Part shown: positions 2,479 to 32,863 of the stretch, in pieces
How the letters are laid out: each line of letters starts with the position of its first letter
Numbering within the stretch: the stretch's first letter is position 1
Source: Herpetosiphonaceae bacterium
GTDB taxonomy: Bacteria; Chloroflexota; Chloroflexia; Chloroflexales; Herpetosiphonaceae
NCBI GenBank assembly: GCA_013538855.1
Contig: JABXJS010000238.1
Span: 1-53,843 of the forward strand
Direction of reading: 5' to 3'
DNA: 53,843 nt
The notes under the pieces: model-generated
Databases searched by the model: none
What the model was told of the DNA's origin: nothing
The model's input: only the letters and a program-made list of their open reading frames with translations
Position numbers and translations under genes: made by a program

Positions 2479-4371
2479 TTAGCTCTCGACGGTGAACTCA
2501 CCCTCGACGACGCCCTCGTCGTTGGTGTTGTCGCTGCTAGCGCTGCCACCGCTCGCCTGCTCGTTTTGGGCACCGCTGTAGGTGGCCTGGCCGATCTGCA
2601 TCAGCGTCTGCTGCAGCGTCTGCATCGAGGCGCGGATGCCCTCGGTGTCCTCGTTGGCGATCTGCTCGCGCAGGGTCGCAACCTGCGACTCAGCGGTGCT
2701 CTTGAGGGTGCTGTCGATCTTATCGCCCTCGTCGGTCAAGGTTTTCTCGACCTGGTAGGCGAGGTTATCGGCCTGGTTTTTCAGCTCGACCCGCTCGCGG
2801 CGCGACTTATCCTCAGCGGCGTGCTCCTGCGCATTCTTGACCATGCGCTCCACGTCGTCTTTGCTGAGGTTGGTGCTGGCCGTGATCGTAATCTTCTGCT
2901 CTTTGCCGGTGTTCTTATCTTTGGCCGAGACATTGATGATGCCGTTGGCGTCGATATCGAACGTCACCTCGATCTGCGGCACGCCACGCGGCGCAGGCGT
3001 GATGCCCTGGAGCTGGAAGCGCGCCAGCGTCATGTTATCGTTGGCCATCTCGCGCTCGCCCTGGAGCACGTGAATGTCAACGGCGGTCTGGCCATCGGCG
3101 GCGGTTGAGAACACCTCCGACTTGCGGGTCGGGATGGTCGTGTTGCGATCGATGAGCTTGGTCATCACGCCGCCGAGGGTTTCAACGCCCAGCGACAGCG
3201 GCGTCACGTCGAGCAGCAGCACGTCCTTGACCTCGCCGCCGAGCACGCCGGCCTGGATCGCCGCGCCAATCGCCACCACCTCATCGGGGTTGACGCCCTT
3301 GTGCGGGTCTTTGCCGGTGATCTTGCGCACCAGCTCCTGAACCACAGGCATACGCGTTGAGCCACCGACGAGCACGACCTCGTCGATCTCGGTGGCCTTC
3401 AAGCCCGCGTCCTTGAGCGCCTGGTTGAACGGGCCTTTGAGCCGCTCGGTCAGGTCGGCGGTGAGCTGCTCGAACTTCGAGCGGGTCAGCGTCATCTGCA
3501 GGTGCTTGGGGCCAGAGGCATCGGCGGTGATGAAGGGCAGGTTGATCTCTGTCTCCATCGTGCTCGACAGCTCCATCTTGGCCTTTTCGGCGGCCTCTTT
3601 GAGCCGCTGGAGCGCCTGCTTATCCTGCGACAGGTCGATGCCCTGATCCTTGCGGTACTCGTCGATAATCCAGTTGACGATGCGCTGGTCGTAGTCGTCG
3701 CCGCCAAGGTGGGTGTCGCCGTTGGTGGCCTTGACCTGGATCACGCCATCGCCGACCTCTAGCACGGAGACATCGAACGTACCACCGCCAAGGTCGAACA
3801 CGAGAATCGTCTCGTCCTCTTGCTTATCGAGGCCATAGGCCAGGGCGGCGGCGGTTGGCTCGTTGATGATGCGCAGCACTTCGAGGCCGGCGATCTGGCC
3901 GGCGTCCTTGGTAGCCTGGCGCTGGGCGTCGTTGAAGTAGGCCGGAACGGTGATGACGGCCTGGCGCACTGGCTCACCGAGGTAGGCCTCGGCATCGGCC
4001 TTGAGCTTCTGCAGGATCATCGCCGAGATCTCCTGCGGCGTGTACTCCTTGCCGGTGCGCGGCAGCTTCACGCGGGCGTCGCCGCGCGGGCCGCGGGCAA
4101 CCTCGTAGGGCACAATCTTGCGCTCGTCGGTGGTGTCATCGTACTCGCGGCCAATGAAGCGCTTAATCGAAAAGACGGTGTTATCGGGGTTGACCGTGGC
4201 TTGGCGCTTGGCCGTCTGGCCGACAAGGCGCTCGCCACCTTTGCTAAAGCCGACGATCGATGGGGTGGTGCGGCCGCCCTCGGCGTTGGGAATGACGGTC
4301 GGATCGCCCGCCTCCATCACTGCGACCACCGAGTTCGTCGTACCTAAATCAATACCTACAATCTTAGCCAT
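2479..4371 (-). CDS. dnaK: Molecular chaperone DnaK (Hsp70)
   Basis: A 630-aa Hsp70 chaperone that binds and releases unfolded segments of client proteins in an ATP cycle. The N-terminal ATPase domain begins [14 protein letters not shown] and carries the second phosphate motif ([12 protein letters not shown]) and LVGGSTRMP. The substrate-binding domain and helical lid follow, ending in an acidic tail. I chose the ATG at 4371 because GGGAGGAAATA precedes it and all Hsp70 proteins begin at this point; a 22-residue upstream extension is spurious. grpE and dnaJ are not adjacent. No CIRCE operator (HrcA site) is visible upstream. A TATAAT box and a pair of direct repeats lie upstream, and a strong terminator follows. 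Confidence 0.98.
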
Positions 4372-4442
4372 TATTTCCTCCCTAGTGTTTGTTGCCATTG
4401 GTGTGTGGATCAGGCTACAGCGTGGTGTAACCTGCACTCTCG

Positions 4443-4448
4443 ATTATA
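4443..4448 (-). promoter_or_regulatory. -10 box of the dnaK promoter
   Basis: TATAAT on the minus strand, about 72 nt upstream of the dnaK start, in the divergent region shared with P450 gene 1. No good TTGACA box lies 17 bp upstream, which suggests an activator or alternative contacts. It is the best sigma-70-type -10 in this intergenic region. I see no sigma-32-type heat-shock promoter. Confidence 0.5.
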
Positions 4449-4478
4449 CCGATCAAACGCTAGAAGGCTATTGGTTTG

Positions 4479-4496
4479 GTGTTAGCATTGTGTTAG
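4479..4496. repeat. Two GTGTTAG direct repeats, one helical turn apart
   Basis: GTGTTAG occurs at 4479-4485 and again at 4490-4496, with an 11-bp start-to-start distance. On the minus strand this reads CTAACAC-AATG-CTAACAC and lies upstream of the dnaK -10 box. It also lies between dnaK and P450 gene 1. A similar arrangement stands before P450 gene 2 (6072-6087), so it is a candidate activator or repressor site shared by the two P450 genes. Confidence 0.35.
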
Positions 4497-4639
4497 ATCA
4501 TTAATGAATCAGCGGCCTCGCGCCTGTGCCGTGGTCGAATGTGGGCCATGGGCAGTGCCTGCTGGCACCCACATGGGCTAGGCGTCTGCCTTAATTTCTA
4601 GTATGATCAGAGCTAGAGATTTTAGGAAAAAGGAGGCCG

Positions 4640-5986
4640 ATGATGGCGCGTGTTCAGCACGCACCTGGTCCGCAGCCGCGTGTGCCAGGTGCCGGATTGA
4701 AGCTGTTGCTGCAAGATCAACGTCGGTTTGTCGAAACCCTCGCCGGCTATGGCGATGTGAGCTGTTGGCCCCTCATTGGCGCGCTGCGCGTCTATCTCGT
4801 CAATCACCCCGCCTATGTTCAAGATGTGCTTGTGAAGCAGCGTGCCGCTCTGGGCAAGCATCCGCTGGAGGTTGAGATTCTGCAGCGCGTGCTGGGCAAC
4901 GGGCTCGTCACCAACCAGGGCGCTGATCACAAGCGCCAGCGCAAGCTGATGCAGCCCGCCTTTCACATGCGTCGCCTCACGCAGTATGCCCAGACGATGG
5001 TGGACTACACGCAGCGCATGCTCGACACGTGGCAGCCGGGCCAGCTGCGCGATATCGCCGCCGACATGGAGACACTGACGCTGGAGATCGTCGTGCAGGT
5101 GCTGTTTAGCGCCAGCGTCTCCGACGCCGAGGCGCGCAGCGTTGGCATTGCGCTTGATCGGATGCAGGACGACCTGCTGCACCTGAGCCGCTTTCCCATC
5201 CCCTGGCCCGCCTGGCTGCCGCTGCCGATCAACCGGCGCATCCAGCATGAGACCAGCGTGATCGACGAGGTTGTGCTGCGGGTGATCAACGAGCGGCGTG
5301 GGCAGCCCAACCCGCCCGACGATCTGCTGACGATGCTGCTTGCGGCGCGCTACGACGATGGCTCGACGATGAGCATCGAGCAGGTGCGCGATGAGGTGAT
5401 CACGGTGTTTTTGGCTGGGCAGGAGACCACCGCCAGCGCGCTGACCTGGATCTTCTACCTGCTCGCGCAGCACCCAGCCGCCGCGGCGCGCCTCTACGCC
5501 GAGGTCGATGCGGTGCTTGGCCAGCGCCCGCCCACCTTCGCCGACCTGCCACAGCTCACATGGACCGAGCAGGTGATCAAAGAGGCGCTGCGCCTGTACC
5601 CGCCCTCATGGCTGCTGAGCCTGCGCACGGCGGTGGAGCCGGTTACAGTTGGCGGCGTGACGATTGAGCCAGGCAGCATCATCATGATCTCGCCGCTGCT
5701 GCTGCATCACGATGCGCGCTGGTGGCCCGACCCGGAGCGCTTTGACCCAGATCGCTTCACGCCGGAGGCCGAGCGCGCGCGGTTGCGCCACGCCTTCATG
5801 CCCTTTGGCGCTGGTGATCGCTCGTGCATCGGCAGTGCCTTTGCCATGGCCGAGATGCAGCTGGTGCTGGCGACTGTCGCGCAGCGCGTGCGCTTCAGCC
5901 TCTATCCGCATCAGCAGGTGCGGGCGGCGACGCATATTACCCTTGGCCCGGCTGGCAGCGTTTGGCTCCAGATCGAGCCGCGCTAG
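4640..5986 (+). CDS. Cytochrome P450 (copy 1)
   Basis: A 448-aa soluble bacterial cytochrome P450, a haem-thiolate monooxygenase whose substrate is unknown. The oxygen-activation helix motif AGQETT is at 259-264, the ExxR pair at E315/R318 (KEALRLYPP), the WWPDPERFDPDRF region near 361-373, and the haem loop FGAGDRSCIG at 389-398 with C396 as axial ligand. AGGAGGCC precedes the tandem ATG-ATG start. The next gene is a P450 of exactly the same length with all motifs at the same residue numbers, so this is a recent tandem duplication. No ferredoxin or reductase gene is adjacent. A possible -10 (TATGAT, 4602-4607) lies upstream, and a terminator follows the gene. Confidence 0.96.
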   Translation: MMARVQHAPGPQPRVPGAGLKLLLQDQRRFVETLAGYGDVSCWPLIGALRVYLVNHPAYVQDVLVKQRAALGKHPLEVEILQRVLGNGLVTNQGADHKRQRKLMQPAFHMRRLTQYAQTMVDYTQRMLDTWQPGQLRDIAADMETLTLEIVVQVLFSASVSDAEARSVGIALDRMQDDLLHLSRFPIPWPAWLPLPINRRIQHETSVIDEVVLRVINERRGQPNPPDDLLTMLLAARYDDGSTMSIEQVRDEVITVFLAGQETTASALTWIFYLLAQHPAAAARLYAEVDAVLGQRPPTFADLPQLTWTEQVIKEALRLYPPSWLLSLRTAVEPVTVGGVTIEPGSIIMISPLLLHHDARWWPDPERFDPDRFTPEAERARLRHAFMPFGAGDRSCIGSAFAMAEMQLVLATVAQRVRFSLYPHQQVRAATHITLGPAGSVWLQIEPR

Positions 5987-6000
5987 CCGCTGCTGCTTGC

Positions 6001-6035
6001 AGGCGGCTCGTTTGGCGGGCCGCCTGTCGCTTTTT
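6001..6035 (+). terminator. Intrinsic terminator after P450 gene 1
   Basis: A perfect 7-bp stem (AGGCGGC / GCCGCCT) with an 11-nt loop, followed 5 nt later by TTTTT. It lies 15 nt after the stop of the first P450, so the two P450 genes are probably separate transcription units. Confidence 0.7.
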
Positions 6036-6071
6036 AAGCGTAGCGCTGTGCTAGCAGAGCAGGGCGCACGG

Positions 6072-6087
6072 TAACACTCGCTAACAT
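6072..6087. repeat. TAACAC / CTAACAT repeat upstream of P450 gene 2
   Basis: TAACAC-TCG-CTAACAT lies about 90 bp before the second P450 start. It resembles the CTAACAC-AATG-CTAACAC pair found before P450 gene 1 and dnaK, with 10-bp rather than 11-bp spacing. A shared regulator is possible but unproven. Confidence 0.3.
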
Positions 6088-6178
6088 CAACGGCCCGACT
6101 GCGGGGCCATTTGATGCTATGGTTTAAAGGGAAAGTCCAAGGTAAATTGATATACCTAAGTGCTAGGAGAGATATCTG

Positions 6179-7525
6179 ATGACAGAACAAGCGTTGATCA
6201 GCGGGCCGGAGTACGCCTGGTTTGGCGCGGGCCTCAAAGAGCTGCGCCGTGATCGGCTGGAGTTCGTGCGCAACCTCGCGCAGTACGGCGACATCAGCCG
6301 CTGGCAGCTGATCGGGCCGATCCAGTTCTACATGCTCAACCATCCGGACTATGTGCACGAGGTGCTGGTGAAGCAGCGCGACGTGTTCATCAAAGAGCCA
6401 GAGGACCTTAAGCAGCTGCGGCGCTTTCTGGGCAACGGGCTGCTGACCAACGAGGGCGCGGATCATCGACGGCAGCGCAAGCTCATCCAGCCGGCCTTCC
6501 ATCACCAGCGCCTGAAGAGCTATGCGGCCACCATGGTTGAGTTTGGCGAGGCGCTGCTGCGCACCTGGACCAGCGGCGCGGTGCTGAACATCGACGCCGA
6601 GATGACCAAGCTGACGCTGGAGATTGTGGCCAAGGTGCTGTTTAGCGCCAACGTATCGGAGGCCGAGGCGGCGGCGGTGAGCGCGGCGCTGGATGAGCTG
6701 CAGGCGGCCATGACCCAGCTTGAGCAGATGGTCGTGCCCGTGCCCGAGTGGGTGCCGATCCCGGCCAACCGGCGCATTCGCGCGGCAACCAGCATCATCG
6801 ACAAGGTCGTGTATCGCGTGATCGAGGAGCGGCGCAGCAGCGGCGCGGAGCATGTGGATCTGCTCGATACGCTGCTGCACACGCGGTACGAGGATAATGG
6901 CGAACTCATGAGCGTCCAGCAGGTGCGCGACGAGGTGATCACGCTCTTCCTGGCTGGCCACGAGACCACCGCCAACGCGCTGACCTGGACCTTCTACCTG
7001 CTGGCGCAGCACCGCGACGCCGTCGAGCGCCTGCACGCCGAGCTAGACAGCGTGCTGGCTGGCCGCAGCCCGACCGTTGACGACCTGCCCAACCTCACAT
7101 GGACCGAGATGATCATCAAAGAGTCGCTGCGGCTCTATCCGCCCGCCTGGGGCCTGAGCCTGCGCGTGAGCCAGACCGAGGTGCAGCTTGGCCCCTACAC
7201 GCTGCCGGCCAAAAGCGCCGTCGGCATCTTCCCCTACACACTGCACCGCGATCCGCGCTGGTGGCCGAACCCGGAGCGCTTCGACCCCGAGCGGTTTACG
7301 CCCGAGGCCGAGCGCAGCCGACCGCGCTACGCCTACATCCCGTTCGGCGGCGGCGACCGCATCTGCATTGGCAACGCCTTTGCCATGATGGAGGCCACGC
7401 TGCTGCTGGCGACGCTGGCCCAGCGCTTCGACCTGTACCTCCAGCCCAACCAGACGGTCGAGCTGGAGCCGCTGATCACGCTCGGCCCGGCCGACGGCAT
7501 CTGGATGCAGGCGCAGGCGCGCTAG
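6179..7525 (+). CDS. Cytochrome P450 (copy 2)
   Basis: A 448-aa cytochrome P450 paralogous to its upstream neighbour. The motifs are AGHETT at 259-264, E315/R318 in KESLRLYPP, and haem loop FGGGDRICIG at 389-398 with ligand C396. The I-helix residue is His261 here against Gln261 in copy 1, and the substrate-facing stretches (about residues 65-80 and 175-195) differ most, suggesting different substrates. AGGAGAGATATCTG precedes the ATG. It is separated from copy 1 by a terminator. Its stop codon overlaps that of the convergent ClC gene by 4 nt (CTAG). No redox partner is encoded nearby. Confidence 0.96.
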   Translation: MTEQALISGPEYAWFGAGLKELRRDRLEFVRNLAQYGDISRWQLIGPIQFYMLNHPDYVHEVLVKQRDVFIKEPEDLKQLRRFLGNGLLTNEGADHRRQRKLIQPAFHHQRLKSYAATMVEFGEALLRTWTSGAVLNIDAEMTKLTLEIVAKVLFSANVSEAEAAAVSAALDELQAAMTQLEQMVVPVPEWVPIPANRRIRAATSIIDKVVYRVIEERRSSGAEHVDLLDTLLHTRYEDNGELMSVQQVRDEVITLFLAGHETTANALTWTFYLLAQHRDAVERLHAELDSVLAGRSPTVDDLPNLTWTEMIIKESLRLYPPAWGLSLRVSQTEVQLGPYTLPAKSAVGIFPYTLHRDPRWWPNPERFDPERFTPEAERSRPRYAYIPFGGGDRICIGNAFAMMEATLLLATLAQRFDLYLQPNQTVELEPLITLGPADGIWMQAQAR

Positions 7526-25321: not shown

Positions 25322-27463
25322 TTACTTGCGGCGGAACCAGCCCTTGCGCGATTTATTCTGCTCTAGCTCCGCGCGCAGGTCCGAGAAGTCGGCTGGGTTG
25401 CTGGGCTGGCTGCGCTCGCCGAGGTCCACAACGCCATCGGGGGTGTCGTGGTCGTCTGGTGCATCGAGCATCCAGCTTGGCACCTCTTCGATGCCAAACT
25501 CGGTTGGCGGCGGCTGCACAAGGCCCTCTTGTTCTAGGTCCTGGCGCAGCCACTCGGGCATATCGGCGGTGATGACTGGCTTGGTCGTGGGCTGCGGCTC
25601 GTCCTCCGGCGGGGCCTCTGGCGCAATCATGTGCACCGGTTCGACCGACATAGGCTCGCTGATTTGATATGGATTTGTGCTTGGCACAGCGCCAAGCTGC
25701 GCCATCCAGCCCCAGATCTGCGTGCGCCGCACCGCTGGATCAGCGCTAAGCTGGAGCGGTCGGCCGCGTGCGTCAATCACGACGCCAAGGATCGACCCCT
25801 CCAGCGCTGCAATATCAGACTGGACCTCGGCTCCTGGCTCATTGTCGCCGATGCGCACGGTGCGCGCTGGCCGCAGCACCAGCGTGCCACGCTGGCCACG
25901 TGGCAGCTCTAGATTGCGAATTTCGCCCTGGCGCACCTGGATGGTCTGTGGCTCACCGCCGACTGGGGTGAGCACAGCCTCAACAGCGATCTCGCCTGCG
26001 CGGCCTGGATCATTGATCACGATGCAGCTTGCCAGCATGCCCGTGCGCAGCGCATCCTGCTCTAGCACGCAGTACGCCGCCTCTGGGTGCTGCCAGCCAA
26101 GCGCGCCACAGAGCGGCAGCAGCATCTCGCGATCAAGGTAGATATCGGTGATCATCGGGCTGGCGGCGGCGGCCTCTGGCAGTGCATCGAGCACCATCAG
26201 CAGCGCCTCGGCTGGATGGGCCACGTGGGTGAGGCTGCCACCGCTGGCGATCACAAAGTCGAACAGCAGCTCCGGCTGCTCGTCGTGGAGCGCCTCCATA
26301 CCGATTTTAAGCGCCTCACGCGCGAGCGCTTGGCTGAAGAAGAGATCTTCTTGGGTGATTGGGACGATCTGCGGGCGCAGCAAGATGTTCAGCACCCGCT
26401 CGCGCACCTGCTGCTCGGTTTGGGTAAATGGGAGCCAGCGACTGATGCCGCTCGTGCCCGCCTGATCGAGGATGCCCGCTGCACCGTAGCCTGTGCCGCA
26501 GTTGGCCAAGATCGCCAGCGCCTGCTTTTGTTCGTGCTCATGCGCATAGACTAGCGCGGTCGAGAGTGCCCCGACATCGAGCACCAGTACGGCGCGCTCG
26601 GTGTGGCGGCTCAGAAAGCGTGTAATTGGCAGCAGGCACTCTGCCGTTGTGCGTAGCGGCACCGTCGTCATGCTGCGCAATCGATTATAGCCCGGCAGAT
26701 TGGGCAGCACCTTGTCATTGTAGATGCGCATCAGCTCATAGCGCGCTGGCATCAGCTGTTCGGTTTCGAGATCCGGGCGCACATTTGCGGCAACTGTAAT
26801 CGGCACAATCGTTGAAAGCGCCTCTTCAACAATCGGATATGCGGCGCTGTTGCCGCTGAACAGCAGGTGCGCAAACTCACGATTGGTCGACTGATCGCGG
26901 CGCAGCAGGGTGAACCCGAGCATGTGGGCCAAGCGCTCAACCGGTGTGACGTTGCCGCCCTCGGTGCCGCCAGCCAGCAGCACGGTGGCTGCCGGCAGCC
27001 GCGCGAGCTGCGTGAGCTGGTGGTCAATCCAGCTCTCCCCCTCTGGGAGAATCTGATCGCGCTGCTCGTCGAGCGTGACGGTGCCCAGCAGGGTGGCATA
27101 GGTGGACTGCGCAACACGCTGAAGACTCGCGCCAGTTGTGTCCTGTGAGATGGCCGCGAGCACCACTGGCAGCGCACCGGCCGCGCTACTGATGAACACG
27201 GCCAGATCAACCCCGCTGCCATCAGGCCGATGTGGAGTGAGTGGCCCATATTCCGATATGAGCTGGCGCGCTGTGAGTGCTTCGATCTTTTTGAGCGCGG
27301 CTTGAATGCCGATCCAAGCGTCGGCTTCGGGCAATTCCAAGGTGGATAGAGCCTGGGCCTGAGCTACGGCGCGATAGTCGCCCGCTACTTGATCGATCAG
27401 CACCACATTGGTGAACAACGTGCCGATGTCAACCACCAGTAATGCAGATGGATCGGAGGCCAT
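25322..27463 (-). CDS. MutL/GlmL-like ASKHA ATPase with PxW-motif tail
   Basis: A 713-aa protein resembling glutamate mutase accessory protein MutL (GlmL), an ASKHA (actin/Hsp70-like) ATPase. The phosphate-1 motif is VVDIGTLFTNVVLID (10-24). LLAGGTEGGNVTP (about 171-183) and VLVLDVGALSTALVYAHE further on are typical of this family. No mutase genes are nearby, so it is not acting on glutamate mutase here. Its C-terminal tail (from about 600) is low-complexity and contains PEWL (636-639) and PSWM (662-665), the motif found about 24 times in the neighbouring zinc-ribbon protein. GAGGAAAC precedes the ATG. It is the last gene of the membrane operon. Confidence 0.85.
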   Translation of the reverse strand: MASDPSALLVVDIGTLFTNVVLIDQVAGDYRAVAQAQALSTLELPEADAWIGIQAALKKIEALTARQLISEYGPLTPHRPDGSGVDLAVFISSAAGALPVVLAAISQDTTGASLQRVAQSTYATLLGTVTLDEQRDQILPEGESWIDHQLTQLARLPAATVLLAGGTEGGNVTPVERLAHMLGFTLLRRDQSTNREFAHLLFSGNSAAYPIVEEALSTIVPITVAANVRPDLETEQLMPARYELMRIYNDKVLPNLPGYNRLRSMTTVPLRTTAECLLPITRFLSRHTERAVLVLDVGALSTALVYAHEHEQKQALAILANCGTGYGAAGILDQAGTSGISRWLPFTQTEQQVRERVLNILLRPQIVPITQEDLFFSQALAREALKIGMEALHDEQPELLFDFVIASGGSLTHVAHPAEALLMVLDALPEAAAASPMITDIYLDREMLLPLCGALGWQHPEAAYCVLEQDALRTGMLASCIVINDPGRAGEIAVEAVLTPVGGEPQTIQVRQGEIRNLELPRGQRGTLVLRPARTVRIGDNEPGAEVQSDIAALEGSILGVVIDARGRPLQLSADPAVRRTQIWGWMAQLGAVPSTNPYQISEPMSVEPVHMIAPEAPPEDEPQPTTKPVITADMPEWLRQDLEQEGLVQPPPTEFGIEEVPSWMLDAPDDHDTPDGVVDLGERSQPSNPADFSDLRAELEQNKSRKGWFRRK

Positions 27464-27490
27464 AATGTTTCCTCTGCCCGGCGGTCTAGC

Positions 27491-28144
27491 CTAGCCCAGA
27501 CCAAGCTGCCGGGTAATAAACTGAACTCGGTCGATGAGTGCGGTCTGGTAGGTTAGCAGTGCGCCACCAAATGCAACGCCAAGGCTAATAACCAGCAGCC
27601 AGTGTCCAATGCTATGGATGCCGCTTGCCGCTGGTTGCTCACCTTCAGTTGGCTGTTTTGAGCGCGTGAATGAAAACGAGAGCAGCACCAAGACGACGCC
27701 GATAACCAGCACAATCTTGCCGATGACGACGCTGAGGTCAGGTGCGTTGGTGAAGGTGTTGATCGATACAAGCGAGTCGCTGATCTGTGGGAGCACAGTT
27801 CCAGCGATGGTTCCCATCAGCGCCACCGCTGCGCCGACCCCAAACAAAATCGCCAGTGGAAAGTTGGCCAGCCAGCTAAACTGTTGACTGCCGAGACGTG
27901 TGAACAACAGTACACTGAGCACAATCGGGATGAGCCAGATCGTCTGCCCGATACTTGGCCCTGCTTCGACCATACCGCGCGCTGGCTCGACCAGGACATT
28001 TGTGAGCAGCACGGTGACCGTGTAGCCCAGCCCTAGCCCCACAAAGAAGTACTGGCTAAAGCGAAACAGCGGGTTATCACCAAATGCACGACTAAGCACG
28101 ATCAGTGTTAGTCCAAAGGCGATCCAGGGCCAGATCGCGTCCAT
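27491..28144 (-). CDS. Polytopic membrane protein, membrane operon
   Basis: A 217-aa integral membrane protein with about six or seven predicted helices; the chain opens directly into a helix (WPWIAFGLTLIVLSRA). A charged loop near residue 170 (TRSKQPTEGEQP) should face the cytoplasm. The ATG at 28144 shares a base with the TGA of the upstream gene (TGATG), with AAGGAG 8 nt before, so it is translationally coupled. No family is recognised. Confidence 0.82.
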   Translation of the reverse strand: MDAIWPWIAFGLTLIVLSRAFGDNPLFRFSQYFFVGLGLGYTVTVLLTNVLVEPARGMVEAGPSIGQTIWLIPIVLSVLLFTRLGSQQFSWLANFPLAILFGVGAAVALMGTIAGTVLPQISDSLVSINTFTNAPDLSVVIGKIVLVIGVVLVLLSFSFTRSKQPTEGEQPAASGIHSIGHWLLVISLGVAFGGALLTYQTALIDRVQFITRQLGLG

Positions 28145-31100
28145 CAATCGTTCTCCTTCTGCCGCCGTCGCTGAGCACGGCTGCGGACTCCGGCGATGCC
28201 GCCGCCTAGGACGATCACGACGATCATGAGACCACCTAGCGAGATGGCGTTTTCGGAAGCGTTGCTGTTGGCCGCTAGTCCAAGCTGATTCGCATAGGCT
28301 TGCATACCTGCTAGCCCGTTGATTTGGTACATTGCTGCGCCTTCAATATGAATGTAGGGCAGATTAAGCGGCGCGCTTTCGTTGGTTGTGAGCACCGCGA
28401 CTGGCAATGTACGGTCAACAGCCCAAACTTGCTCGACCCACTGGCGCACGTCATCTGGGCTATCGGCTACGATGACGAGCAGATCGAAATCTTGCATGCT
28501 GCTGATGATTGGCCGCTCGAAGCGAATGCTGCTGCCTTGGCCTGTGACTTTCGAGAAAAAGCCGATGAAGTTGATATCGTTCGCCGAGTTGAGCTGTTTG
28601 ATGCGGTCGCGTAGCACGTCGCGCGTGTGTTGGGCCAGATTGGCCAGCGCTGTGCTGCCGCCGGCAAAGTACGCTAGATTGATAAAGTCCGCGCCGGGAG
28701 TCAGCCCCGCTTGGCGTAGCTGGAGCGCTTCTCGATCTGCCACCAGCGTGCCTTGGACATCTGTTGACATAAGCAGCATCGGTGCATGTTGTGCTTGCAG
28801 GTGTTGCATCACAACATTGGTCAGCGGCTCTAGCTCGGCGCTACGGCGTAGATCGGCCTCGTAGGCGATCAACACGCGACTATCGCTGTTCAAGTCATTG
28901 ATATAAGTGTACAGCCCCGCCACATCGCCGCCGAGCCGATTTGGCCCGGTAAGTGGCAGATCCTGAACCACAAACGGTGTCAAAATTGCCAAGAGCAGCA
29001 GGAGCGCAATGATCCGATCAATGCCCACCTTTTGCCACCAGCGCTTGGATACTGCTGCCTCCTCGGCAGCTGGCTCCGGCAGCGGCTGCATAATGATCTC
29101 GCGCAAGAGGTTGGCTGCGGCCAACCGCTCTGGCGACGGCTCGAATGTTGGCGGCAGCGGCACATCAGAGCGACGCGTCGGCTGCTCTGTTGCTACCTCG
29201 GCTGTTGGTGTTGTTTCCTCTGGTCCAAGCACGCGCAGCCAGTCTGGTGTCTCACTTGTCTCCGTCTCTGCCTCTGCGGATGGTGACGGCTGTTCTGGCT
29301 CTTTGACACTCTGGCGTAGCCAGGCTGGTAGGTCAACATTGCTCAACAAGCTGTCATCCACGGCAGCAGTCGAATCATCATCCAGCAACCAAGAGGGCGC
29401 AGTGGGCTGACTGCTTGGCTCATCGAGCCGAACTGTGGTGGCTGGTGCTGTTGGTAGATCCTCGCTCAACCAGCTTGGAGCTGCTGACTCGGCGTCGCTT
29501 GCGGCTTGCTCCACGTCGCCGACACCTGTTAGAGGCGCTTCAGGTGTGTCTTCTTCCGCCTGGAGCCAAGCCGGAATATCACTGGTACTTGCGAGTGTAC
29601 CATCAACGTCGCGTAGCCACTCTGGTACTGTTTGCTGCTCTTGATGCGCAGGCCCTGTAGACGATTCTGCTGACTGCTCCACCTCCGCTGTCTCAGTGTC
29701 CTGCAGCCAGGGGGGCACATCGTCCTGCTCAAGGGCAACGGTGGGTGTGCCCTGCGCATCAGGCGTTTCAGTAGCCTGGAGCCACGGGGGTACATCGTCC
29801 TGCTCAAGCGCAACGGTGGATGTGTCCTCCGCTACTGTCTCAGTGTCCTGCAGCCACGGGGGCACATTGTCCTGCTCAAGGGCAACGGTGGGTGTGCCCT
29901 GCGCATCAGGCGTCTCAGTGTCCTGCAGCCAAGCAGGAATACCGCTAACTGGTGTTTCTGCGGCGCTTGGCGCATCCGTTTGTGCGTCTTGCATCCACGG
30001 TGGAGTCTCAGCAATGGGGCTTTCATTCGGCCCCCATGCGGGCACTGTTGTACTATCTAGCGTTGCTGCAGGAACTATCGGCTCGCTTGACTCAGCCATC
30101 CGCAGCCACTCGGGAATATCTGTTGCTTGGTCTGGCTGCGCATCGGCTGCTTCAGCCTGGGCTGCTTCACTCGACTCAGCGTTTTGCATCCAACTAGGCA
30201 TCTCCGTTGGTGTCTGAGTTACGGGATGGAGATCTTCATCGGATATTTCAACAATGGGCGGCTCACTATCCAGATCTTGGAGCCACGTTGGTAGATCACC
30301 TGTGGCTGGCTTGGTAATATCAGGCGACTCAAAGCCAAGCTTATCATTTTTCGGAGCAGACACGTTGTTCTGCTCTGGCTCAAGTGCACGCACCCAGTCC
30401 GGAAGGTGCGTCCCTTGTTCGCCATGGTCTTCAGTAGGCTGCTCGTTCTCGGCTTCAGCTGAATGTGCCGCTGGTGGTGGGGTGGATTGATCGGTCGTTT
30501 CAAGCTCGCGCAGCCACTCAGGACCATCCTCGTCCATTCCGCTGCTCGCAGCTGGTTGAGTAGGTGGCGGCGTGGCCGGGGCCTCGTCGCGGAGCCAGGG
30601 CGGCACGTCGTCGCCTGCATCATCGGCGGCGGGCTGGGCCTGGGCGGCTGGAGGCGGTGCGGCCTGATCGGTAGGCTGAAGGTCGCGGAGCCAATCGGGC
30701 ACATCGTCGTCCATGGTGCTCGGAGCAGGAGCCTGAGCAGCGGCTGGTGGCGGTGTGGCCGGGGCCTCGTCGCGGAGCCAGGGTGGCACGTCGTCGCCTG
30801 CATCATCGGCGGCAGTGGGCTGGGCCTGGGCAGCAGGCGCACTTGACTGTTGTAGATCGGCTAGCCATGCTGGCAGCGGCTCACTATCGCCGAGTGCAGG
30901 CTCAGGCTGACTCGGAGGTGGTGGTGTCTCTGGTGGCGGAGTTGAAGCCTGAAGCTCTCGCAGCCAGTCTGGCAGATCAGTTGGCGTGCTTTGTTGCGGC
31001 GATTGTGGGCTAGGCTGCGCCGTATCAGGCTGATCAAGCCCTTGTAACCATGGTGGCAGGTCACTTGGAGCGGAGGCTTGCGACTGGCTTGGCGGTGCAG

Positions 31101-31296
31101 GTGCATCTCTGAGCCAGTCGGGAGTATCACCGCTTTGAGGCGACTGAGGACTAGCCGAATCACCTGACTGATCAAGCTGTTGCAGCCAAGGAGGCAATGT
31201 TGCATCGTTGTTTGCAGCCGGGGTGAGTGGCGCGTTACAACGAACACAAAAAACCCGATCAGGGCTGTTCGGCGTGCCACATTGTGGACAGTACAT
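28144..31296 (-). CDS. Zinc-ribbon protein with about 24 PxW motifs and an extracytoplasmic domain
   Basis: A 1050-aa protein. An N-terminal zinc ribbon (C3, C6, C17, C20) is followed by a very long acidic low-complexity region (about 35-690) with roughly 24 copies of P-x-W-(L/M/V)-x, for example PPWLQD, PDWLRD, PAWLQD. A membrane helix at about 761-778 leads to a ~240-residue extracytoplasmic alpha/beta domain, and a second helix (about 1019-1037) returns to a short basic tail. By this topology the motif region is cytoplasmic. Near-identical DNA repeats inside it show recent expansion. AGGAGGCGGCC precedes the ATG. It shares its motif with the MutL-like neighbour. Function unknown; I propose a scaffold. 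Confidence 0.82.
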   Translation of the reverse strand: MYCPQCGTPNSPDRVFCVRCNAPLTPAANNDATLPPWLQQLDQSGDSASPQSPQSGDTPDWLRDAPAPPSQSQASAPSDLPPWLQGLDQPDTAQPSPQSPQQSTPTDLPDWLRELQASTPPPETPPPPSQPEPALGDSEPLPAWLADLQQSSAPAAQAQPTAADDAGDDVPPWLRDEAPATPPPAAAQAPAPSTMDDDVPDWLRDLQPTDQAAPPPAAQAQPAADDAGDDVPPWLRDEAPATPPPTQPAASSGMDEDGPEWLRELETTDQSTPPPAAHSAEAENEQPTEDHGEQGTHLPDWVRALEPEQNNVSAPKNDKLGFESPDITKPATGDLPTWLQDLDSEPPIVEISDEDLHPVTQTPTEMPSWMQNAESSEAAQAEAADAQPDQATDIPEWLRMAESSEPIVPAATLDSTTVPAWGPNESPIAETPPWMQDAQTDAPSAAETPVSGIPAWLQDTETPDAQGTPTVALEQDNVPPWLQDTETVAEDTSTVALEQDDVPPWLQATETPDAQGTPTVALEQDDVPPWLQDTETAEVEQSAESSTGPAHQEQQTVPEWLRDVDGTLASTSDIPAWLQAEEDTPEAPLTGVGDVEQAASDAESAAPSWLSEDLPTAPATTVRLDEPSSQPTAPSWLLDDDSTAAVDDSLLSNVDLPAWLRQSVKEPEQPSPSAEAETETSETPDWLRVLGPEETTPTAEVATEQPTRRSDVPLPPTFEPSPERLAAANLLREIIMQPLPEPAAEEAAVSKRWWQKVGIDRIIALLLLLAILTPFVVQDLPLTGPNRLGGDVAGLYTYINDLNSDSRVLIAYEADLRRSAELEPLTNVVMQHLQAQHAPMLLMSTDVQGTLVADREALQLRQAGLTPGADFINLAYFAGGSTALANLAQHTRDVLRDRIKQLNSANDINFIGFFSKVTGQGSSIRFERPIISSMQDFDLLVIVADSPDDVRQWVEQVWAVDRTLPVAVLTTNESAPLNLPYIHIEGAAMYQINGLAGMQAYANQLGLAANSNASENAISLGGLMIVVIVLGGGIAGVRSRAQRRRQKEND
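29701..29922. repeat. Three near-identical 72-75 nt tandem repeats within the zinc-ribbon gene
   Basis: Units start at 29701, 29776 and 29848 (75, 72, 75 nt). The first and third are almost identical over their whole length. Each encodes a PPWLQ(D/A)T(E) block with the acidic linker. They are recent tandem duplications within the coding sequence. Confidence 0.75.
30562..30828. repeat. Repeated ~82 nt block inside the zinc-ribbon gene
   Basis: The segment at about 30562-30643 recurs almost unchanged at about 30743-30828, 181 nt apart. Both encode a DVPPWLRDEAPATPPP-type stretch. Together with the repeats at 29701 it shows that PxW blocks were multiplied more than once. Confidence 0.7.
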
Positions 31297-31308
31297 TGAG
31301 GCCGCCTC

Positions 31309-31974
31309 CTAGCGATCTAAATATGGCCGGTCAAGACCAAGAATAATGCGAACACTGGCGACAACTGCGCCGATTGCTGCGCCAAGTGCAAGCCCGCGTA
31401 GCCCAGCCAAAGCGAGGTACTGTTGGATCCAAACGGCAGTTTCACCAACAAAAGGCAGCCATGCTGTTATGGGAAGCTGTAGCAGCAGCATGAATGTTGC
31501 TACCACTGTGACCACAACGGCCTCGCGGCTGCCGCTGCCCAAAGCACGGATAGCGGCTGTTAGCGCAAAGAATGTCAAGAGTGCCAGCAGACTAACACTC
31601 AACGGCGTGTAGACCCAGCGCACCACATCTTGAAACAAGCTTGTTTCAAGGACAATCGGCTGAGCCTCGGCAAAGTTGCTGTAGAGCGCCAACCCTGGAG
31701 GAATGAGGACGCCGATCAAGAGCGCGACGCTGTAAGGCCAGCGTGGATGGCGACGGCGTAGGCGACCTAGATGGAACCAGACAACGTTGGCGACGCCAAC
31801 CAGCACGGCAAAGGCCGCCAAAAACTGTGCCAGCTCTAAAACCTGCTGGCTTGCTTCGCTGATTCCGCTGATATTGGCAAACAGGCGATCAAACAGGATC
31901 AAAATACCAGCTACACTCCCGAGCAGGATGGGAATGAGGCGCTTGAAATCACGGAGAAGTTGAAGTTGACGCAT
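31309..31974 (-). CDS. Polytopic membrane protein, membrane operon
   Basis: A 221-aa integral membrane protein with about six predicted helices. The N-terminal residues RDFKRLIPILLG lead into the first. It overlaps the upstream DUF6754-like gene by 26 nt, and the zinc-ribbon gene starts 12 nt after its stop. No family is recognised. Position and topology suggest it is a membrane partner of the zinc-ribbon protein. Confidence 0.8.
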   Translation of the reverse strand: MRQLQLLRDFKRLIPILLGSVAGILILFDRLFANISGISEASQQVLELAQFLAAFAVLVGVANVVWFHLGRLRRRHPRWPYSVALLIGVLIPPGLALYSNFAEAQPIVLETSLFQDVVRWVYTPLSVSLLALLTFFALTAAIRALGSGSREAVVVTVVATFMLLLQLPITAWLPFVGETAVWIQQYLALAGLRGLALGAAIGAVVASVRIILGLDRPYLDR

Positions 31975-32863
31975 TCACAATCCCCTGTCTGGCGGGTACT
32001 CCAGGAAAACTGCTGTTGATAATTCCCAGGTCCTGCAGCGACCATAAGATGATACCTACAACAATGACCGCGATCAGTAGGTACCGAATTGCATCGTGGG
32101 TAAGCACACGCGCCAATCCAATCGGGGTTGGTGCGACATACGCCTCAGCAACGTAGATTTCTTCTCCATACAGTGTTTGATCTGCAGTGAGTATCACGGC
32201 TGCTAGCGAGGATGGGTTGGTGGTGCCAGCAATCTGTTGAATGCCTGCTTGTTGACCCTGCTCTCCAAGCAGCAGGTAGCTTTCGCCAAAGCCGCCCACA
32301 GCCACGCTGGCCTCCATTGGCTCATAAAGGTAGCGCTGACCAACACCTGCGGCAAAGGCAAGTGAATCATGATCGGCATATAAGCGCACTGACTGAGGAT
32401 CGTAGTCTTCTGTGTAGCCTGCGTCGCGGTAGGTTGCATGAATTGCCCCCCGCAGTGCTAGGTGTGCTACTGCATCGCCGCTGGAGGCTGTGACAGTGCC
32501 ACCACGCCGTGCTGCGCCGCTTGACACCCGCTGCGCAAGCATCAACCCAGCAAACATCGCCGGGCTGATTGTTTCCCCATGCAGAGATCCGCTTCCTGGT
32601 GTGATGTGCACTGGCTGCCCGGTTTCGGCTGCTCTGGCTAGCGCTGTATCAAGCTCATCAAGGGCTGGTAAAGGCCGTAGGTTGACCTTACGTCCGCCAG
32701 AGATGACCCGACCATACAAAAATGGTAAGGCAATAGCCATACTAATAAGCAGAATAGTTACAAGCAGATCGAACAGTGACACGCTGAAGCCCTCGTTGTA
32801 GAATCTATGAGGATCTGGTGCGAGAATTGCGCTGAGTGTAGCCCATTGACTCTGGTTTGTCAA
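31949..32863 (-). CDS. DUF6754-like membrane protein
   Basis: A 304-aa protein with an N-terminal membrane helix (about 28-50), a soluble domain of ~190 residues (about 65-255) and a C-terminal helix (about 260-280). The soluble part has an N-terminal glycine-rich stretch (ITPGSGSLHGETISPAMFAGL) and conserved-looking polar blocks (GDAVAHLALRGAI). From memory it resembles the DUF6754 family of Chloroflexi; this is not verified. It starts with TTG overlapping the upstream TGA (TTGA), with no strong Shine-Dalgarno, so coupling from the 88-aa gene is probable. The next gene overlaps it by 26 nt. Confidence 0.72.
   Translation of the reverse strand: MTNQSQWATLSAILAPDPHRFYNEGFSVSLFDLLVTILLISMAIALPFLYGRVISGGRKVNLRPLPALDELDTALARAAETGQPVHITPGSGSLHGETISPAMFAGLMLAQRVSSGAARRGGTVTASSGDAVAHLALRGAIHATYRDAGYTEDYDPQSVRLYADHDSLAFAAGVGQRYLYEPMEASVAVGGFGESYLLLGEQGQQAGIQQIAGTTNPSSLAAVILTADQTLYGEEIYVAEAYVAPTPIGLARVLTHDAIRYLLIAVIVVGIILWSLQDLGIINSSFPGVPARQGIVNASTSTSP

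Follow-up and report, generated by a model that had tools for sequence, protein, structure and literature searches.

The window analyzed here is contig JABXJS010000238.1 of a Herpetosiphonaceae bacterium (assembly GCA_013538855.1), taken over its whole length of 53,843 nucleotides (nt). In the labels used below, G stands for genomes, L for loci, f for families, and A for alignments; the window is contig C197 of genome G000, which is 6.3 Mb in size. The ORF (open reading frame) listing shows a block of five adjoining genes encoding, in order, a DUF6754 protein, a membrane protein termed TM221, a zinc-ribbon/Rossmann protein, a second membrane protein termed TM218, and a MutL-type ATPase. These genes and every feature described within the block lie on the minus strand. 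The spacings along the block are -26, +12, -4, and +27 nt, in agreement with a preliminary description of this DNA that gave gaps or overlaps of at most 27 nt. We found that these genes, together with a sixth encoded elsewhere in the genome, recur as a set in many bacterial phyla.

The first protein (31949..32782) was described as DUF6754-like, and it is a member of that Pfam family (PF20539; 121.8 bits against a cut-off of 27; E 3.5e-35). Its AlphaFold 2 (AF2) model is confident, with a predicted local distance difference test (pLDDT) score of 92 and a predicted template-modeling (pTM) score of 0.84, and shows a transmembrane (TM) helix, a Rossmann-like domain, and a second TM helix. In other phyla, DUF6754 proteins carry an additional segment on the outer side; by eye it resembles a fibronectin-III domain, which Pfam did not call. 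The two polytopic membrane proteins reported previously are borne out: TM221 (31309..31974; alignment A6) and TM218 (27491..28147; alignments A1 and A7) are each predicted to have six helices, and neither matches any Pfam or NCBIfam family. TM221 has homologues at the same place in intact clusters, and TM218, a conserved partner, carries a GT-x-x-PQ motif.

The third protein (28144..31296), also a conserved partner, has 1,050 amino acids (aa) and does begin with a zinc ribbon, as proposed (residues 2-24; 31225..31293; Pfam PF13240, Zn_Ribbon_1, E 9.6e-06). A linker with 24 P-x-W-[LMV] (PxW) motifs by count follows (residues 35-687; 29236..31194). The C-terminal part (residues 762-1035; 28192..29013) again models as a Rossmann-like domain between two TM helices (pLDDT 88, pTM 0.81). 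To orient the two TM-Rossmann-TM proteins, lysine-plus-arginine (K+R) bias was computed over about 55 homologues of each. For the zinc-ribbon protein's Rossmann domain, the values were 2.7/3.4 in the flanks versus 0.7/1.35 in the loops. This bias puts the domain outside, consistent with the outer domain claimed for this protein, and the DUF6754 Rossmann domain is predicted to lie inside, so that the two proteins would have opposite topologies. Foldseek searches with both AF2 models returned generic Rossmann matches alone, and the best VIA-align Z score for the zinc-ribbon protein's domain, 9.3, is likewise that of a generic Rossmann fold. Profiles of DUF6754 and the outer Rossmann protein (A4 versus A5) can be aligned along most of the two proteins, a TM helix included, at a probability of 4.7%; distant paralogy with opposite topology is possible, and we do not claim it. 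The number of PxW motifs in homologues ranges from 0 to 63, with none in the non-Chloroflexota forms of roughly 280 aa. Judged from these homologues, both the zinc ribbon and the PxW linker are features of the Chloroflexota forms.

The fifth protein (25322..27463; 713 aa) is a soluble member of the Pfam family MutL of the ASKHA superfamily. It scores above the curated cut-off along the whole model (PF13941; 210 bits against a cut-off of 27; residues 9-470 on model positions 2-449; E 6.6e-62). ATP-binding motifs are recognizable in it (DIGTLFTN, DVGALST, and ASGGS), and in MutL of other phyla they are canonical (ATDCGSTTTK, GVDIGGATTD, and GSGG). From its sequence, the window MutL would be an active ATPase. 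Beyond the Pfam model lies a C-terminal domain (25664..26053) with the motif LGVVIDARGRPL at residues 559-570, which is kept across our alignment of 57 MutL sequences. The tail of the protein carries two PxW motifs, at residues 636 and 662, and ends in a basic aromatic stretch, GWFRRK (25322-25350). The ribbon-PxW proteins of families f20 and f38 (L111, L114, and L122) have a similar tail, GWRRIFGR. These basic aromatic tails could attach the proteins peripherally to the membrane.

The block is preceded by a promoter of its own (32835..32863), with a -35 box TTGACA at 32863-32858, a 17-nt spacer, and a -10 box TACACT at 32840-32835. Across the region as a whole, promoter-like matches were no more common than in shuffled sequence. 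The same promoter, with TACACT or TAAACT as the -10 box, stands upstream of DUF6754 in 16/16 loci of the window's order. On this comparative evidence, the transcription unit starts at DUF6754. The start of DUF6754 had been placed at TTG 32863, giving 304 aa. However, this TTG is the first base of the conserved -35 box, and homologues begin at a position matching GTG 32782, which is therefore the likely start (277 aa). The preliminary description also had the block cotranscribed with genes for a PIN-TRAM protein and dtd. Our analysis does not support this as a functional link: with dtd ending 255 nt upstream and a promoter belonging to the block itself, cotranscription would at best be read-through. 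The linkage of PIN-TRAM, dtd, and radA to the block is found only within the order, and there not in every family, and we rejected these genes as parts of the system.

We then asked how far the gene order extends. Colinearity of the five genes holds in all four families sampled in the window's order, with the exception of contig-truncated loci and of the degenerate genomes G012 and G021. It also holds in Chloroflexota families f9, f10, f12, f15, f33, and f42. Outside the order, contig ends interrupt two Chloroflexota loci (L095 and L097). Thus, the order is kept beyond this genome, in nearly every complete Chloroflexota DUF6754 locus examined. Scanning GTDB genomes with the MutL alignment (A3), with LGVVIDARGRPL as a pattern, yielded 567 relatives. 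By their record titles, the best 80 are from Anaerolineae, Armatimonadetes, Poribacteria, Eisenbacteria, Planctomycetota (including Brocadia), Sumerlaeota, Cloacimonadota, Calditrichaeota, and others. In several other phyla, among them Planctomycetota, Armatimonadota, and Sumerlaeota, the order is MutL-BSH-DUF6754-TM221-Rossmann-TM218, where BSH is the sixth protein described below; this arrangement differs from that of Chloroflexota by cyclic permutation. The run DUF6754-TM221-Rossmann-TM218 remains intact in nearly all loci to which MutL is not linked, and in the window, too, these four genes are contiguous in that order. Identity between phyla is about 20-30%; ORF starts of homologues were assigned mechanically, and some of the reported lengths are too long. 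DUF6754 is present in 25/28 genomes that hold a MutL relative, in 22/79 genomes of one further phylum and 51/61 of another, and in 0/14 control genomes. One locus has the four-gene membrane module tandemly duplicated beside a single MutL-BSH pair (L201:13164-20402), and another has a second Rossmann gene (L188:5881-8612).

Outside the window's order, MutL is followed by a protein of roughly 350 aa with weak barrel-sandwich and KOW similarity, which we call BSH. The gene is not in the window. It lies unlinked to the block in the same genome (G000:C44:2599-3717; E 1e-72) and is kept in 28/31 relatives; the genus that has no MutL (G010 and G029) also has no BSH. Among 151 Chloroflexota, 37/37 genomes with DUF6754 have BSH and 36/37 have MutL by Pfam; in the exception (G087), a MutL cut by a contig end was found in locus L098. 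MutL and BSH occur together in 73 of the 151 (Fisher p 2e-16), and the co-occurrence p values across Chloroflexota range from 1e-10 to 2e-16, shared ancestry not being corrected for. Judged from this distribution, the BSH-KOW protein is the sixth core member of the system. Sequence searches of the PDB gave weak KOW and barrel-sandwich matches with alignment A2 and nothing meaningful with A3, A4, or A5. In the window's order, what comes after BSH is a gene for a hybrid histidine kinase, one for a response regulator weakly similar to MglB/roadblock, or both (L215 [G000:C44:1-14000], 2509-6536; L216 to L224). In this order BSH is also often found upstream of the operon for ATP synthase.

Several neighbors of the cluster recur. 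Outside Chloroflexota, two small families without a Pfam match, a helical protein of about 125 aa with a conserved FLES motif and a two-TM protein of about 150 aa, often precede MutL or DUF6754 (L204:9601-9993 and L152:9159-9611). At five loci in more than one phylum, gcvPA-gcvPB (glycine dehydrogenase subunits) or gcvPB alone directly precede the cluster, upstream of MutL (L139, L152, L195, L200, and L201). A Chthonomonas genome has an extra divergent copy, possibly acquired, beside MutL-BSH with a much weaker DUF6754 match (L266, G176:C158). In Poribacteria records (L138 to L187), MutL is mostly alone beside oxidoreductase and sugar-isomerase-like genes, and the membrane module is elsewhere in the genome.

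The reading that we favor is that MutL, BSH-KOW, DUF6754, TM221, the TM-Rossmann-TM protein, and TM218 constitute an undescribed, widely distributed bacterial system. That the six proteins form a conserved functional system is almost certain. That they form one physical complex is probable. The conserved order, the co-occurrence, the joint loss of MutL and BSH, the duplicated membrane module beside one MutL-BSH pair, the invariant promoter, and the confident models with opposite topologies all favor the reading as a whole. The gene set, its order, its promoter, and the predicted architecture are the observed part of this explanation. From the combination of an ATPase, a scaffold, and membrane subunits, we infer, as the preliminary description did, an energized membrane complex, and our findings largely support that interpretation. 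In such a complex, the cytoplasmic membrane would hold a single unit made of the four membrane proteins, two of them six-helix and two TM-Rossmann-TM subunits; the Rossmann domain of DUF6754 would lie inside and the other outside. MutL, together with BSH, would dock on the inner face of this unit. Binding or turnover of ATP by MutL would then switch the conformation of the membrane unit, coupling the inner domain to the outer one. In Chloroflexota, the zinc-ribbon/PxW tail may act as a multivalent tether that concentrates MutL and BSH at the membrane. With this mechanism included, we rate the account as evenly balanced between right and wrong. For the output, ATP-driven or ATP-gated transport is the likeliest option, while itself doubtful; trans-membrane signaling or mechanical coupling comes close behind it, and assembly or chaperoning of another membrane component is unlikely.

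Several observations weigh against this reading. Structure comparison of the two TM-Rossmann-TM domains gave Z scores of 8-11, those of a generic Rossmann fold. The membrane helices of TM221 and TM218 have few conserved polar residues, so that a classical secondary transporter is not favored. Genomes G191 and G192 have MutL and no DUF6754. In family f20 of Chloroflexota, a soluble ribbon-PxW protein, MutL, and BSH are kept without the membrane genes. In two degenerate loci (L046 in G012 and L047 in G021), DUF6754 is truncated or gone, TM221 and TM218 are lost, and the Rossmann domain is cut off after the first TM helix, with the ribbon-PxW part and MutL kept. Therefore, the ATPase part has a role without the membrane module. 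That the MutL-BSH and membrane modules are separable is the main argument for one process without one complex.

Such a process could be a shared regulon or pathway, with sensing or signaling done by the membrane module and MutL-BSH acting elsewhere, on a cytoplasmic target of their own. The two modules are unlinked in several phyla, f20 dispenses with the membrane module, and in the window's order BSH adjoins the kinase and response regulator genes described above. However, where all components are present, they lie in one cluster with the same cyclic order in distant phyla, as is typical of stoichiometric partners. We consider this explanation unlikely, if the most serious of the alternatives. 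A second alternative is an inner-membrane platform with an actin-like ATPase, like PilM-PilN-PilO, that drives or aligns an envelope machine. An ASKHA ATPase, membrane proteins with outer domains, and a multivalent cytoplasmic tether would all suit such a platform. However, MutL has no PilM/FtsA-family match (hmmscan against Pfam gave PF13941 alone at E<=0.1), PilN and PilO are bitopic whereas two partners here have six helices, and no pilus genes were recognized in the neighborhoods. This explanation is improbable.

It could also be that MutL reactivates a B12-dependent mutase as a GlmL-like chaperone and that its membrane neighbors are incidental. The protein does belong to the Pfam MutL family, and the known members GlmL and Or-4 (NCBIfam names) serve amino-acid mutases. 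However, against the GlmL equivalog (NCBIfam NF040745; cut-off 475), the window MutL scores 78.7 bits and a Planctomycetota homologue 236. Glutamate mutase (PF06368) has no match in the whole of G000, which upholds the absence noted previously beside MutL, and is above cut-off in 1/151 Chloroflexota. That one genome also has the strongest MutL matches, presumably true GlmL. Given the score far under the GlmL cut-off, the extra C-terminal domain, and the lack of glutamate mutase in the genome, the window MutL is, as far as sequence comparison goes, not GlmL. The linkage of MutL to membrane genes across phyla is strict. We therefore rejected a GlmL-type chaperone function on the GlmL score and the missing mutase; it is largely refuted and very improbable. 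Least likely of all is an anti-phage defense system: conserved membrane/ATPase sets of unknown role often turn out to be one, but eight components compared with PADLOC-DB 2.0.0 had no match at E<=0.1, and the system is near universal in one phylum (51/61) rather than confined to patchy islands.

We therefore return to a six-protein membrane system. No component matches a characterized pathway, so that these proteins do not each fall into an unrelated known one. No description of the set was found in the family libraries, structures, defense database, or literature searched; DUF6754 was not named in the open literature searched, and the literature around glutamate mutase/MutL in Chloroflexi and around GlmL held nothing on this cluster. 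As far as these searches go, the system is undescribed, and it may still turn out to belong to a known class once its function is established. Tentatively, and at somewhat less than an even chance, it could represent a new class of ATP-driven bacterial membrane machine that is present in many phyla. In such a machine, an ASKHA ATPase of the MutL type, rather than a P-loop or rotary motor, would act with a barrel-sandwich adaptor to power or gate a four-subunit unit with Rossmann domains on both faces. Its occurrence in many phyla suggests that its job is probably important. Its retention through deep divergence, with DUF6754 in most sampled genomes of one phylum, suggests that a piece of basic membrane biology is still missing. 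The members of the MutL/GlmL ATPase family known to date are accessory to amino-acid mutases, and this system would show a new job for the family.

Among known systems, DUF6754 (PF20539) includes the window protein, and as a Pfam family of unknown function it gives no mechanism. The Rossmann-like fold, at the Z scores given above, is shared generically with RCK/TrkA/KtrA gating domains, sirtuin, and transhydrogenase dIII; we found no sequence similarity to these, and a fold class so widespread says little about function. BSH is weakly similar to the N-terminal domain of RnfC/NqrA, to biotin/lipoyl barrel-sandwich domains, and to NusG/SPT5 KOW domains, but it lacks redox subunits, has no significant whole-protein match, and is tied to MutL. 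PilM-PilN-PilO(-PilP) of type IV pili, which also place an ASKHA ATPase at an inner-membrane complex, may serve as a working analogy, although no homologous component was detected here. The closest relative is GlmL/MutL of glutamate mutase, which has the same ASKHA core, with the phosphate and adenosine motifs recognizable in the window protein. Unlike GlmL, the window MutL falls below every equivalog cut-off and has an additional C-terminal domain, and its partners, in a genome without the mutase, are membrane proteins and BSH-KOW.

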